NCBI GenBank assembly: GCA_018667995.1
Contig: JABIQT010000006.1
Span: 1-6,505 of the forward strand
DNA: 6,505 nucleotides
Origin: Candidatus Latescibacterota bacterium
GTDB taxonomy: Bacteria; JAAXHH01; JABIQT01
Direction of reading: 5' to 3'
The position numbers and the translations under genes were made by a program. The notes beneath the pieces were generated by a model, which made no database searches, was not told the DNA's origin, and was given only the letters and a program-made list of their open reading frames with translations. This document shows, in pieces, positions 1,220-6,505 of this stretch. Each line of letters starts with the position of its first letter. The first letter of the stretch is position 1.

Positions 1220-3007
1220 TTGCGACACATTGTTTGTATTTCGATTACGTTAGTTGCCTTGTTTACAGTCCCCTTGGTCGGATGGACGAGCAATAAGCCA
1301 ACCATTCGCTTCAAAGAAATCGGCGAGCAGGCCGGCGTGGGCTTTGTACCCTCGTCTCGGCAGTTCACGGGAAACAAAGCTCAGGTCCTGGCGATGTTCA
1401 CCGATGGGGGTTGCGCCGTAGCAGTCGCCGATTACAACAATGATGGGTATGACGATATGTTCGTGACCGATTCGGACACGGGTAAACGCAACCATCTGAT
1501 GCGCAACAACGGGGATATGACGTTCACCGACGTCGCAATCGAGTCGGGAGTCTCCGGTGGTAATGACGCTAGCTCCATTGTGGCGGACGCGCTCTGGTTT
1601 GATTACAACAATGACGGTCAAAAGGATCTGCTGGTGGTCCGTTTTGGTACCTCTATTCTTTACCGTAACGAAGGGCCGCAAGATGGGGGGCAATATCGCT
1701 TCACGGACGTCAGCAAAGAAAAAGGATTGACCAAATTCGGAAACACGATTGCCGCCATTGCGTTTGATGCCGACCGGGATGGATATCTAGATCTCTTGCT
1801 CGGCAATTACTTTCCGGCTCGGAATCTCCTTGATTTGGACACACCACACGTGCTTCCCAATAATCTTGATTACGCAGACAATGGTGGTGGAGTCACGTTC
1901 TGGCGTAATCTTCCCGGAAAAAACGGCGAACGCGTTTTTGTCGAGGCGACGGTTGAGGCAGGTTTCGCCCACCATACCGGTTGGTCTCTGGACTTAGGTC
2001 ATGCGGATATAAACAATGACGGTTGGCAGGATGTCTATATAGCCGGTGACTACGGTACTGATCGTCTGTTTTTCAACAAAGGCGACTCCACAGGCGCATT
2101 TGAAGACGTGACGGAAGCGGCCATAGGATTTGATACGCGGAAAGGTATGAACGTGGATTTCGGGGATTATAATCGCGATGGCTGGCTTGACATCTTCGTT
2201 ACAAACATTACCGACGAATATATGCGCGAGTGCAATATGCTTTGGCATAACAATGGTGACGGTACGCTGATCGATCTATCCCGGGAGACCGGCGTATGCG
2301 ACACCGACTGGGGTTGGGCCGGCAAATTCGGCGATTTCGACAACGATGGTTGGGAAGATCTTTTCGTGGTTAACGGACTGCGGTCGGCGGGTGAGCGCAA
2401 CTATATTCCGCTTATGCTCGAGATGATCATAACTCCTGGGATCGACTTCTCCGATATCAACAACTACCCGGATATCGGCGATAGGACCTGGAGTGGCTAT
2501 CAGAAACAGCGGCTTTTCCAAAACCTGACAGACGGCACCTTCAGAGAGACAGGAGCCGAGTCCGGAGTCGACAATGATTTCGATGGGCGCGGCATTGGTA
2601 TGGCCGATTTCAACAACGACGGCCTGATTGATCTGTACCAGACAAACGCCCGACAATCCGCCCTGCTCTATGAAGGTGCGACCGAGAACGCAGGCAACTG
2701 GGTAGAAATGAAACTAGTCGGCACGTATTCAAACCGGGATGCAATCGGTACCCGTGTCATTCTGACCGCCGCCGATGGCGAGGAATACCTTCGAGAGGTT
2801 AACTGCGGCAACGCATATGCCAGCCAGAGTACGACCCGTTTGCACTTTGGTATCGGGACGGCGACCGGAATAACATCGGTTGAGATTCGCTGGCCCAACG
2901 GCCAAATCGAGACTTTCGGCTCCACGGACGATTTATCAGTAGTTCCGGTCAATGCCATTACCTGTTTCAAAGAAGGCAAAGGGATCGTTGACACGGTGAA
3001 CGAATGA
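1220..3007 (+). CDS. Exported CRTAC1-like protein: seven-motif FG-GAP/VCBS propeller plus ASPIC/UnbV domain
   Basis: This is a complete 595-residue protein with a TTG start behind a strong Shine-Dalgarno site. Residues 1-24 look like a Sec signal peptide: R2 and H3, a hydrophobic core at 4-20, and a polar region near 21-25; there is no lipobox. Seven calcium-loop motifs follow: DYNNDGYDD 71-79, DYNNDGQKD 128-136, DADRDGYLD 183-191, DINNDGWQD 263-271, DYNRDGWLD 316-324, DFDNDGWED 372-380 and DFNNDGLID 463-471. That number fits a seven-bladed propeller, with longer inserts between blades 3/4 and 6/7. Residues about 493-566 are ASPIC/UnbV, with SNRDAIGTR 504-512, ASQST 534-538, HFGIG 542-546 and WPNG 558-561. 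All loops keep their acidic ligands, so calcium binding is likely. The domain is clearly paralogous to that of the upstream gene. The length is normal for bacterial CRTAC1-like proteins as I recall them. No enzyme motif is visible, and ligand and process are unknown; a surface or periplasmic binding role is inferred. Confidence 0.93.
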   Translation: MRHIVCISITLVALFTVPLVGWTSNKPTIRFKEIGEQAGVGFVPSSRQFTGNKAQVLAMFTDGGCAVAVADYNNDGYDDMFVTDSDTGKRNHLMRNNGDMTFTDVAIESGVSGGNDASSIVADALWFDYNNDGQKDLLVVRFGTSILYRNEGPQDGGQYRFTDVSKEKGLTKFGNTIAAIAFDADRDGYLDLLLGNYFPARNLLDLDTPHVLPNNLDYADNGGGVTFWRNLPGKNGERVFVEATVEAGFAHHTGWSLDLGHADINNDGWQDVYIAGDYGTDRLFFNKGDSTGAFEDVTEAAIGFDTRKGMNVDFGDYNRDGWLDIFVTNITDEYMRECNMLWHNNGDGTLIDLSRETGVCDTDWGWAGKFGDFDNDGWEDLFVVNGLRSAGERNYIPLMLEMIITPGIDFSDINNYPDIGDRTWSGYQKQRLFQNLTDGTFRETGAESGVDNDFDGRGIGMADFNNDGLIDLYQTNARQSALLYEGATENAGNWVEMKLVGTYSNRDAIGTRVILTAADGEEYLREVNCGNAYASQSTTRLHFGIGTATGITSVEIRWPNGQIETFGSTDDLSVVPVNAITCFKEGKGIVDTVNE

Positions 3008-3116: not shown

Positions 3117-6100
3117 ATGGCTGTCTTTCTAAAAGTAACCTTTTTCTGTGTATTTCTCTTCATTTCCACGAGCCTGAACGCTCAAACCAGTTCGCAAGAG
3201 GAACAGTTGTGGCATCACCGGAATCTAGGCAAGGCTTTCTACGAGAATCCGGTCACACAGTATGATGCTGTGGGCGAGTTCAAGAAGGCGCTGGACCTGG
3301 CGCCTGGATCGGCACGGGATAGGATTAACTATGGCCTTTCTCTGTTGCGGGCCGGCAAAACGGCAGAGGGTGTAGCAGAACTGGAGGCGGCACAACAGCA
3401 GGATCCAGGAATACCCCATACCTGGTTTAATCTGGGCATCGCTTACAAGCGGGAATCACGGTATGAAGATGCGATTCAGCAGTTTGAACGTATGATAGAA
3501 CTTGTTCCCGACGAACCGATCTCTCGGTACAACCTCGGCGTTCTCTACAAGCAGACTGGCCAACAGGAAGAGTCTGTTCAGCAATTTCAGAAATCTGCCG
3601 TACTCGATCCGAATTTGGCCGGTCCACACTATCAGTTGGCAACCGCATTTCGCTCAGCCGGTCGCCAGGAAGACTTCAAACGAGAGATGGCTGTTTTCCT
3701 CCGAATCAAAAGAGAACAGGCCAATGCTGCGGTTCCCGCAGATCTCGAATGGAGTCTGTATTCCGAGATTTACGAGACAATAGATCCCGCTTTCGCCACT
3801 GATAACGGGTCGGCATCAGAGATGATTTTCAGTTCTGTCACCCTTGAAAACAGACAAGACACCATTGGCGCCGGTTTCGCCATCTTCGATGCCGATGCCG
3901 ATGACCATGTCGATGTGTTATTCTGGTCAAATCACGGTATGAAACTGTTCAAACAGGGAAAAGATCTGGTGACCAGTGGTTTGGAGGGAGTAAAAGATGT
4001 GATCGCCGCAATACCGGGAGATGTAGACAACGACGGTTTTGTCGACATCTGCCTGGTAACCCGCGATGGCGCAGCCTTGTATATCAATAGCAATGGGCGT
4101 TTTCAATTACAGAAGGATGGGTTCTATACGGGACAGTTTAACGATGCTATCTGGCTCGATTACGACCACGATTATGACATCGACTTGTTTCTACTCGGAT
4201 CTCGATCCGTTTTGATGCGCAACGAGGGTACGGCGGTCTTCAGCGATCAAAGTGCCAACTTTCCCTTTGTCGAGGGACAGGCGTTAAACGGCGCCCCAAT
4301 AGACCTGATTGCCGATACCCAGGGCATGGACTTGGTCGTTATTTACGCTAACCGAGCTGGGGTAATCTATCGCGATCGGCTGGCCGCTAAGTACGAGGCC
4401 CAACCGCTCGAAGAGTTAGCGACCATGACGGAGGTCGTAACGGCTGATTTTGACAACGACGGCTGGACGGACTTAGCTGCCGGCAACACTTCCGGTATAA
4501 GTCTGTTTGTCAATGATCAGAAGGGAGGATTTACGATCCTGCCAGCGCCGAAAGAGGCGAAAATTCCCTTTGTCTTCGCCGATCTGGAAAATCGGTCGAT
4601 CAGCGAATTGATTGCTGGAGGTAGACTATATCGAAACCTGGGCCTCGGGAAATTTGCCGCGGGATCCGAATTAATTAGCCTGCCAACGGCTATAGGAGTC
4701 GCGGATATTGATAATGACGGCCGCCTTGATGTGTCTGCGGTCGGATCAGGTGGGAAATTAGAAGTCTGGTACAATAAATCAGATACTGACAATCACTGGT
4801 TGCGCATCAGTGTCACGGGGGTAAAAAACCTTAAGCTTGCACCCGGCGCTGAGATTGAAGTGAAGGCTGGAACTTGCTATCAGAAGAAGATCTATCACGG
4901 CATTCCTCTGTTGTTCGGCCTGGCGTCGTATGAGCAGGCAGATGTGGTTCGGATTACGTGGCCAAATGGATTGATTCAGAACGAGACCCGCCAAGCTACG
5001 GAACGGTCCGTTCTTTACACGGAGGCGCAGCGACTTTCTGGATCCTGCCCGATGATATTCGCATGGAACGGCGAAACATTCCAATTCATAACCGATGTGT
5101 TGGGTGTCGCTCCACTAGGCGCCAGTTCAGGCGATAATCAATACTTTCCTGTGGATCACGATGAGTATATTCAGCTTCCTTTAAATTCGATGAAGCCGAA
5201 CAATGACGGTCATCTTGAAATTCGCATCACAGAGGAATTGCGCGAAGTGGCCTATATCGACGAGATCTCTTTGATCGCTATAGATCATCCCCAGAAGTTC
5301 GACATTTTTGTTAATGATAAGTTCAAAGGCCCACCGTTCCCGGATTTTCGGCTTTTTGGCGTAGCTCAGCGCATCTATCCAATTCGTGCCCAAGATCATC
5401 AACAGCGCGATGTGCTGCAAGAAATCCTGACTCATGATCGCACCTATCCTGACCATTTCGAACGAGACTACGCCGGGGTTGCTGAAAAGCACTTTATTGA
5501 ACTTGACTTCGGTAAACAAGAAGCAGAGGGGCGCGCGATTCTCGTCCTGAATGGCTGGGTCGATTGGGCTGATGGCAGTACGTACATCGGCAACGCACAG
5601 CGGAATCCTGATGGCTTGATTATGCCGTACCTTCAAGTCAAGGATTCCCAGGGCAAATGGAAAACCGTGATTGAAGACATGGGTATGCCTGCCGGCAAGC
5701 CCAAAACCATTGTCGTGGATCTCACTGACAGGTTTCTGTCTTCAACACGTGAGGTTCGGATTGTAACCAACCTGTGCGTATACTGGGACGAGATCTTCTT
5801 GAGTACCGACTTTGAGGTGTGGCGACGGGAGAGCTTACCTCAAACCGTACGACTTACCGATCTTCACGCGATGTCGGCCGACTTGAATTACAAAGGCTTT
5901 TCGCAACCCGTGATTCATCCGGAGCGGAAACAGCCGGAAATGTTCATATATGACAGAGAACTCACATTTCCGATGTGGAACCCTACTCCCGGGAAATATA
6001 CTCGGTATGGTGATGTGCGAGAGTTGTCCGAGAGCATTGACGATCGCCTCATCATAATGGGCTCGGGCGATGAACTTCGCTTAACGTTCGATCCCGGCGA

Positions 6101-6380
6101 GTTGCCCACATTGGCACCAGGCTGGCGGCGCGATTATTTACTGTTCGTGGACGGTTGGGCCAAGGATGGAGACGCGAACACGGCCTTCTCCCAAACCGTT
6201 GAGCCACTACCGTATCACGGCATGCCGCAATACCCATATGCCGAACCGTACGTCTATCCGCAGGATGTCGAGCACAATTCGTACAGAACGCGTTTCAACA
6301 CCCGGCCCGCCCGACGATTGATCCGTCCGTTGTCCGAAGCGCTGCAAGGTAATTCGGCTGCGAGTGCAGACGTAAAATGA
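3117..6380 (+). CDS. Exported TPR / FG-GAP propeller / ASPIC-like protein with large C-terminal region of unknown function
   Basis: This is a 1087-residue protein. Residues 1-22 are a signal peptide (K6, hydrophobic core 7-16, cleavage likely after SLNA). Five TPR units follow at about 34-65, 66-99, 100-133 (WFNLGIAYKRESRYEDAI), 134-167 (RYNLGVLYKQTGQQEESV) and 168-201. A propeller spans about 235-555. Canonical calcium loops are at 302-310 (DVDNDGFVD), 444-452 (DFDNDGWTD) and 530-538 (DIDNDGRLD). Altered loops are at 258-266 (DADADDHVD) and 348-356 (DYDHDYDID), and blades near 391-409 and 487-502 have lost the motif. Residues about 559-635 are a diverged ASPIC-like domain: LFGL and WPNG (615-618) remain, but the ASQST signature of the neighbours is missing. 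From 642 (GSCPMIFAWNGETFQF) to the end is a region I cannot name. It is rich in beta-type sequence and Trp/Tyr, with VYWDEIFL at 888-895 and a Pro/Tyr-rich stretch near 1029-1050. As I recall, similar C-termini follow ASPIC domains in Acidobacteria and related groups. The protein is probably co-expressed with the upstream paralogues. Its function is unknown. Confidence 0.92.
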   Translation: MAVFLKVTFFCVFLFISTSLNAQTSSQEEQLWHHRNLGKAFYENPVTQYDAVGEFKKALDLAPGSARDRINYGLSLLRAGKTAEGVAELEAAQQQDPGIPHTWFNLGIAYKRESRYEDAIQQFERMIELVPDEPISRYNLGVLYKQTGQQEESVQQFQKSAVLDPNLAGPHYQLATAFRSAGRQEDFKREMAVFLRIKREQANAAVPADLEWSLYSEIYETIDPAFATDNGSASEMIFSSVTLENRQDTIGAGFAIFDADADDHVDVLFWSNHGMKLFKQGKDLVTSGLEGVKDVIAAIPGDVDNDGFVDICLVTRDGAALYINSNGRFQLQKDGFYTGQFNDAIWLDYDHDYDIDLFLLGSRSVLMRNEGTAVFSDQSANFPFVEGQALNGAPIDLIADTQGMDLVVIYANRAGVIYRDRLAAKYEAQPLEELATMTEVVTADFDNDGWTDLAAGNTSGISLFVNDQKGGFTILPAPKEAKIPFVFADLENRSISELIAGGRLYRNLGLGKFAAGSELISLPTAIGVADIDNDGRLDVSAVGSGGKLEVWYNKSDTDNHWLRISVTGVKNLKLAPGAEIEVKAGTCYQKKIYHGIPLLFGLASYEQADVVRITWPNGLIQNETRQATERSVLYTEAQRLSGSCPMIFAWNGETFQFITDVLGVAPLGASSGDNQYFPVDHDEYIQLPLNSMKPNNDGHLEIRITEELREVAYIDEISLIAIDHPQKFDIFVNDKFKGPPFPDFRLFGVAQRIYPIRAQDHQQRDVLQEILTHDRTYPDHFERDYAGVAEKHFIELDFGKQEAEGRAILVLNGWVDWADGSTYIGNAQRNPDGLIMPYLQVKDSQGKWKTVIEDMGMPAGKPKTIVVDLTDRFLSSTREVRIVTNLCVYWDEIFLSTDFEVWRRESLPQTVRLTDLHAMSADLNYKGFSQPVIHPERKQPEMFIYDRELTFPMWNPTPGKYTRYGDVRELSESIDDRLIIMGSGDELRLTFDPGELPTLAPGWRRDYLLFVDGWAKDGDANTAFSQTVEPLPYHGMPQYPYAEPYVYPQDVEHNSYRTRFNTRPARRLIRPLSEALQGNSAASADVK

Positions 6381-6449: not shown

Positions 6450-6505
6450 ATGGCCATGTTGAACTCTGAGAACACAGATCAGAAAGATGGAGATAAGAAG
6501 AAAGA
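6450..6505 (+). CDS. N-terminal fragment of an unidentified protein, 3'-partial
   Basis: The frame starts ATGGCCATG, with two possible starts at 6450 and 6456, behind an AGAGG site, and stays open to the end of the window (18 codons plus two bases). The visible residues, MAMLNSENTDQKDGDKKK, are hydrophilic and lysine-rich, with no signal peptide in this part. A charged cytoplasmic leader before a membrane segment is one possibility. It begins about 70 bases after the third gene on the same strand with no convincing terminator between, so it may belong to the same transcript. The product cannot be identified from so few residues. Confidence 0.5.
   Translation, partial: MAMLNSENTDQKDGDKKK

Follow-up and report, generated by a model that had tools for sequence, protein, structure and literature searches.

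A conserved C-terminal domain on a TPR–CRTAC1-type protein from a Latescibacterota genome, a candidate binding domain missing from the searched domain libraries

Acidobacteriota and related bacteria commonly carry ASPIC/CRTAC1 genes, for which we know of no established function. The window analysed here (the whole stretch of DNA under study, 6,505 nucleotides) carries as its third gene a protein of this type in which an ASPIC-like domain is followed by a long C-terminal region that a sequence-only reading could assign to no named domain. What this region is, and what it may do on such a protein, is the question addressed here. A literature search found no paper on the region, and ASPIC/UnbV itself is named only in passing, in the Solibacter and Poribacteria genome papers.

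Domain layout of the protein

The third gene is a single open frame of 1092 codons on the forward strand, as are its parts and the two neighbouring genes of the window described below, with its stop codon at 6378–6380. The candidate starts are TTG 3102, ATG 3111 and ATG 3117, of which ATG 3111 or ATG 3117 is more likely than the TTG codon; ATG 3117, which agrees with the residue numbering of the sequence-only reading, is assumed throughout (gene at 3117–6380). The N-terminus is hydrophobic (AVFLKVTFFCVFLFISTSLNAQ) and looks like a Sec signal peptide. It precedes a set of TPR helices (model residues 27–201, 3195–3719; Pfam TPR_11, E = 4e-15, with the helices visible in the model), a CRTAC1-type FG-GAP propeller (model residues 232–560, 3810–4796; FG-GAP_3, 57.2 bits, four stretches), a diverged ASPIC/UnbV (transthyretin-like, TTR) domain (4797–5021) and the C-terminal region of 451 residues (5025–6377). 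The earlier reading had opened the region slightly later, at 5040 (5040–6377, residues 642–1087, 446 residues), where it starts with GSCPMIFAWNGETFQF, and had pointed to a Pro/Tyr-rich end; this stretch (PLPYHGMPQYPYAEPYVYP) does lie near the C-terminal end and is conserved.

The position of the region after an ASPIC-like domain was read correctly. The Pfam match to ASPIC is weak and partial (20.0 bits, under the curated cut-off of 23.4, and over profile positions 33–66 only), so that the window protein possesses the FG-GAP propeller of the CRTAC1/ASPIC-UnbV family but differs from it in an ASPIC domain that scores below the cut-off. A propeller–TTR core as in solved CRTAC1 is nevertheless supported by the predicted structure, because a fold comparison with the full-length model (pLDDT 86.7, pTM 0.83) matched the propeller and ASPIC/TTR core to mouse CRTAC1 (9etn_A) with Z = 34.1 over 403 residues at 2.7 Å. 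While the FG-GAP propeller and TTR core are common to both proteins, the 551-residue CRTAC1 chain aligns mainly with the middle of the window protein, and the TPR front and the C-terminal region are additions here.

Conservation of the region and its wider family

Relatives of the region are encoded in 126 stretches detected by a single scan of 84,980 species genomes, and 80 of these stretches were kept. These share about 56–66% identity over nearly the whole region and come mostly from Acidobacteriota (Bryobacterales, Terriglobia and others), with single ones labelled Latescibacterota or Zixiibacteriota; the remark of the earlier reading on similar tails behind ASPIC domains in Acidobacteria is borne out, the region being common in TPR/ASPIC-type proteins there. 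The second survey, of 384 genomes selected as relatives, placed the strong form of the region in the window genome, in the 15 others of its order and in 17 genomes of other families, where the members are mostly frames of 1110–1440 residues matching the family; the divergent ones examined, mostly of 1110–1350 residues, have the region at the C-terminus. The order TPR, FG-GAP propeller, ASPIC/TTR and C-terminal region is constant in all 66 of the 66 complete aligned relatives, each set behind a signal-like N-terminus. The strong form thus nearly always sits on a TPR–propeller scaffold, in scattered bacterial lineages.

Conservation within the protein is by far the highest in the C-terminal region, with a mean pairwise identity of 65% and 17% invariant columns against 44–53% and 4–8% in the other domains (44% and 4% for the propeller alone). 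The strongest constraint of the branch therefore lies in an unnamed domain missed by Pfam and NCBIfam, not in the named domains. Trp, Asp, Lys, Arg and Thr are among the invariant residues, of which many lie in loops specific to the branch, and 42 positions stay near-invariant after the addition of 36 divergent sequences, including P394, L395, P396, Y403, P412 and R427 (region numbering) in the Pro/Tyr tail. Residues near-invariant across such divergent sequences rule out the tail as low-complexity filler. The sequence-only reading had also remarked on many Trp, Tyr and Asp residues; these are slightly enriched relative to the rest of the protein (2.0 versus 1.4%, 4.5 versus 3.6% and 8.7 versus 7.6%, respectively), but the clear excess is in Pro (7.4 versus 3.3%). 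At one relative locus, a full-length copy is followed after about 2 kb by a 190-residue frame that covers the second half of the region alone (L152:12979–13548, profile positions 264–429), either a partial duplication or a decayed copy.

Searches with the region sequence returned no match in Pfam-A or NCBIfam, and Pfam searches over 81 relatives gave only stray matches (E > 0.08) in a few members. No PDB chain is similar to the region by sequence, and the best PDB match of a profile built from 81 sequences had E = 0.48. No characterised family was matched with confidence, although such a match was looked for throughout, and the judgement that no domain could be named held in every one of these searches. 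A plasmid search with the region matched nothing. Among viral contigs there were three partial matches, each beginning within 6 bases of a contig end; they are read as probable host flanks on viral contigs rather than viral genes. A fold search against viral proteins was uninformative: its matches were scattered beta proteins of the tail-fibre and carbohydrate-binding-like kinds, with a TM on the query of 0.22 or less. The region is a real, conserved and unnamed domain.

The profile of the region also matches proteins of other make-up (whole-sequence E about 4e-10 to 3e-14), which look secreted; some carry NHL repeats and T9SS sorting tails, some are lipoprotein-like and some have carboxypeptidase-regulatory domains. 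A profile–profile comparison (hhalign) aligned positions 1–418 with a probability of 100 and E = 4e-41, and the reverse profile, made from the wider family, matches the window region with E = 2e-21. The reverse profile also identified 13 genomes with members that, judged by length or score, are not of the TPR–CRTAC1 type; of two that were read whole, one carries PKD and a T9SS tail and the other LVIVD and FlgD_ig domains. The wider module (L119–L126, L179, L183) and the window region are homologous over nearly the whole region at 19% identity, and a signature of an SCPxxYxWDG opening, a VDHP strand and an RxFxxxSxGYY closing is common to both, whereas the wider module lacks the GWVDWADGST motif, the WNPTPGxYTRYGD insertion and the Pro/Tyr tail and has other fusion partners. 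The profile comparison shows the window region to be one specialised branch within a wider secreted module, CPxxYxWDG ... VDHP ... RxFxxxSxGYY. Because this wider family has other fusions, the region does not occur solely as a tail behind ASPIC domains. Neither branch nor module is present in Pfam or NCBIfam, and the two profile families could join the domain libraries.

Predicted fold and motifs of the region

The AlphaFold2 model of the region, computed from 81 sequences (pLDDT 87.5, pTM 0.88), is nearly all beta, as the sequence pattern had led the earlier reading to expect. When this predicted model was compared with known structures using VIA-align, the top ranks were galactose-binding-like jelly rolls (Z 8–10, rmsd about 3 Å, 115–139 residues); these values are only moderately above the tool's usual background of Z 7–8 for models without clear matches, so that more weight falls on the agreement of the top matches in fold class than on Z itself. 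The highest match was PAPP-A (8hgg; Z = 10.1, 139 residues, 3.7 Å), and 1tvg (Z = 9.1), CBM32 modules, DOC domains, discoidin-type domains and neuropilin b domains were also matched. Residues 112–265 (5358–5819) are accordingly modelled with a galactose-binding-like jelly-roll fold, a class that covers about a third of the region; no new fold is claimed for the flanking beta segments. The beta strands on either side of the jelly roll probably make up one outer layer together.

This predicted fold is common to residues 112–265 and the galactose-binding-like domains (CBM32, F5/8 type C/discoidin and DOC; 1tvg, 4a42, 9r6v and PAPP-A, 8hgg), but the window region matches none of the family profiles of this superfamily in sequence, Pfam included, and its jelly roll forms part of a larger beta region that also has loops specific to the branch and a tail. 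The region opens with SCPMIFAWNG (5043–5072; SCPxxYxWDG in the wider family), in which C8 and P9 are near-invariant, and the opening-motif residues C7 and P8 are invariant in seven distant members. Profile alignment places an IDHP motif (VDHP in the wider family) at 5280–5291, with D74 and H75 invariant in distant members. The branch-specific motif GWVDWADGST, which distant members lack, lies within the jelly roll (5553–5582), and its G177, W178, D180, W181, D183 and S185 are invariant in 81 close sequences. It is followed by a branch-specific insertion (region residues 287–331, 5883–6017), a gap in the wider family, with an invariant GFS, Y309 and WNPTPGxYTRYGDV. In the alignments, the closing strands contain GWAKDGDANT in place of the RxFxxxSxGYY of the wider family (6051–6182), and the Pro/Tyr-rich tail, conserved in the branch of the window, extends from VEPLPYHGMPQYPY to NTRPARRLIRPL (6192–6332).

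Gene neighbourhood and possible function

We tentatively propose that the region is a ligand-binding head on a secreted CRTAC1 scaffold. The protein would be exported by the Sec system, its TPR repeats would dock a partner, and the CRTAC1-type propeller/TTR core would serve as a rigid scaffold presenting the C-terminal region, a predicted jelly roll between N- and C-terminal beta segments with branch-specific loops and the conserved Pro/Tyr tail, which may bind a glycan, a peptide or another ligand. In Acidobacteriota, its partners in an extracytoplasmic complex are probably the CRTAC1 proteins encoded alongside it and, in many cases, a membrane-anchored c554-type multihaem cytochrome. Both the class of fold and the invariant loops, with their aromatic and charged residues, suggest a ligand-binding role. 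The sequence-only reading had likened the region to carbohydrate- or ligand-binding modules; the galactose-binding-like jelly roll of residues 112–265 is compatible with that likeness, but so common a fold is no proof of a ligand, and jelly-roll folds also act as protein-interaction or structural domains.

Cytochrome genes often lie next to genes of this branch, as do biosynthetic genes in some lineages. A conserved row comprises CRTAC1, CRTAC1, TPR protein, CRTAC1 and the gene with the region, and the window is one piece of it: a fusion of the TPR protein with the C-terminal end of a CRTAC1 gene (1–1182; separate frames in L021, L023 and L041), a CRTAC1-family gene with FG-GAP and ASPIC domains (1220–3007; in the same place in some relatives, with the Pfam matches found on the L021 equivalent) and the gene studied here. 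The 5' part of the row is probably on contig C1054 of the same genome. Some loci continue the row with a membrane protein bearing c554-type haem motifs and TPRs, and then another CRTAC1. Among loci with room, a CRTAC1 gene immediately precedes this gene in 19 of 65, and a c554-type multihaem cytochrome gene immediately follows it in 39 of 71. Such gene order, together with the TPRs of the cytochrome itself, the DOC-type jelly rolls among the fold matches, the top rank of PAPP-A and the defined domain arrangement suggested by the pTM of 0.83 for the full-length model, would also suit an assembly or interaction domain that clamps CRTAC1 neighbours or the cytochrome without any small ligand. We consider this rather unlikely, as the region stays highly similar where the neighbours differ, beyond what a surface for those neighbours would need.

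In the window genome, a cytochrome of the same cluster is on contig C272 and adjoins unrelated genes. None of the genes seen near the divergent members that were examined belongs to the cytochrome cluster; the complex is therefore not universal, and the idea of a universal cytochrome partner was dropped. The distant families are mostly without these neighbours, CRTAC1 genes excepted in some. Other CRTAC1 genes of the window genome adjoin relatives of the c554-type cytochrome (L149, C129:6486–13163; L150, C1075:2771–5182), and a CRTAC1 gene adjoining hydrazine-synthase-like multihaem genes has been reported (PMC12758564).

Ketosynthase genes occur within 8 kb downstream in 10 of the 48 loci with room, several of which also have genes for HMG-CoA-reductase-like proteins and FAD oxidoreductases. 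It is improbable, in our view, that the region is or completes an enzyme, with the invariant loops as active site and the CRTAC1 propeller as scaffold, as in propeller enzymes. These neighbours would fit such a role, as would the 17% of invariant columns, in many of which the residue is D, E, K, R, W or H, and the presence of the propeller enzyme aldos-2-ulose dehydratase among the fold matches of the scaffold, but most loci have no biosynthetic neighbours, no catalytic motif was recognised in the region, and the branch-specific invariant loops are absent from the wider family. UnbV, the name-giver of PF07593, comes from enediyne gene clusters, which would also favour an enzyme; a literature search found nothing linking UnbV to enediyne and, for diiodotetrayne, only an unrelated paper. 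That the region is a mere structural cap or surface-display domain, stabilising or anchoring the scaffold, is very improbable, since it is the best rather than the least conserved part of the protein, even if the wider family does occur in diverse secreted proteins, several with terminal sorting domains.

Returning to the ligand-binding head, jelly-roll modules on secreted scaffolds are common, and the arrangement predicted here is of that known kind; the family and its wider relatives are nonetheless absent from the searched libraries. Its predicted fold and recurrent scaffold recommend the region as a candidate new binding domain, and a defined piece of about 440 residues provides a target for experiments. 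A further-reaching proposal, which we regard as a long shot, is that the region founds a new family of secreted domains, with a binding or catalytic role, which on the TPR–CRTAC1 scaffold recognise or modify a specific extracytoplasmic substrate together with the multihaem cytochrome; if it were true, the 'CRTAC1' operons of Acidobacteriota would encode an undescribed redox-linked surface machine.

Two further observations concern flanking genes. At seven loci (L023:9582–13253, and L029, L037, L040, L041, L042 and L053), two ketosynthase genes and an HMG-CoA reductase homologue (PF00368) lie downstream, with a CrtI/amine-oxidase-like FAD enzyme added in some; the same kinds of genes, plus one like tryptophan halogenase, are present on contigs C689 (L151) and C931 (L148) of the window genome, and the arrangement resembles a polyketide or polyene cluster linked with CRTAC1 genes. 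In the window itself, positions 6457–6505 hold the start of a possible next gene (MLNSENTDQKDGDKKK...), truncated where the contig ends.
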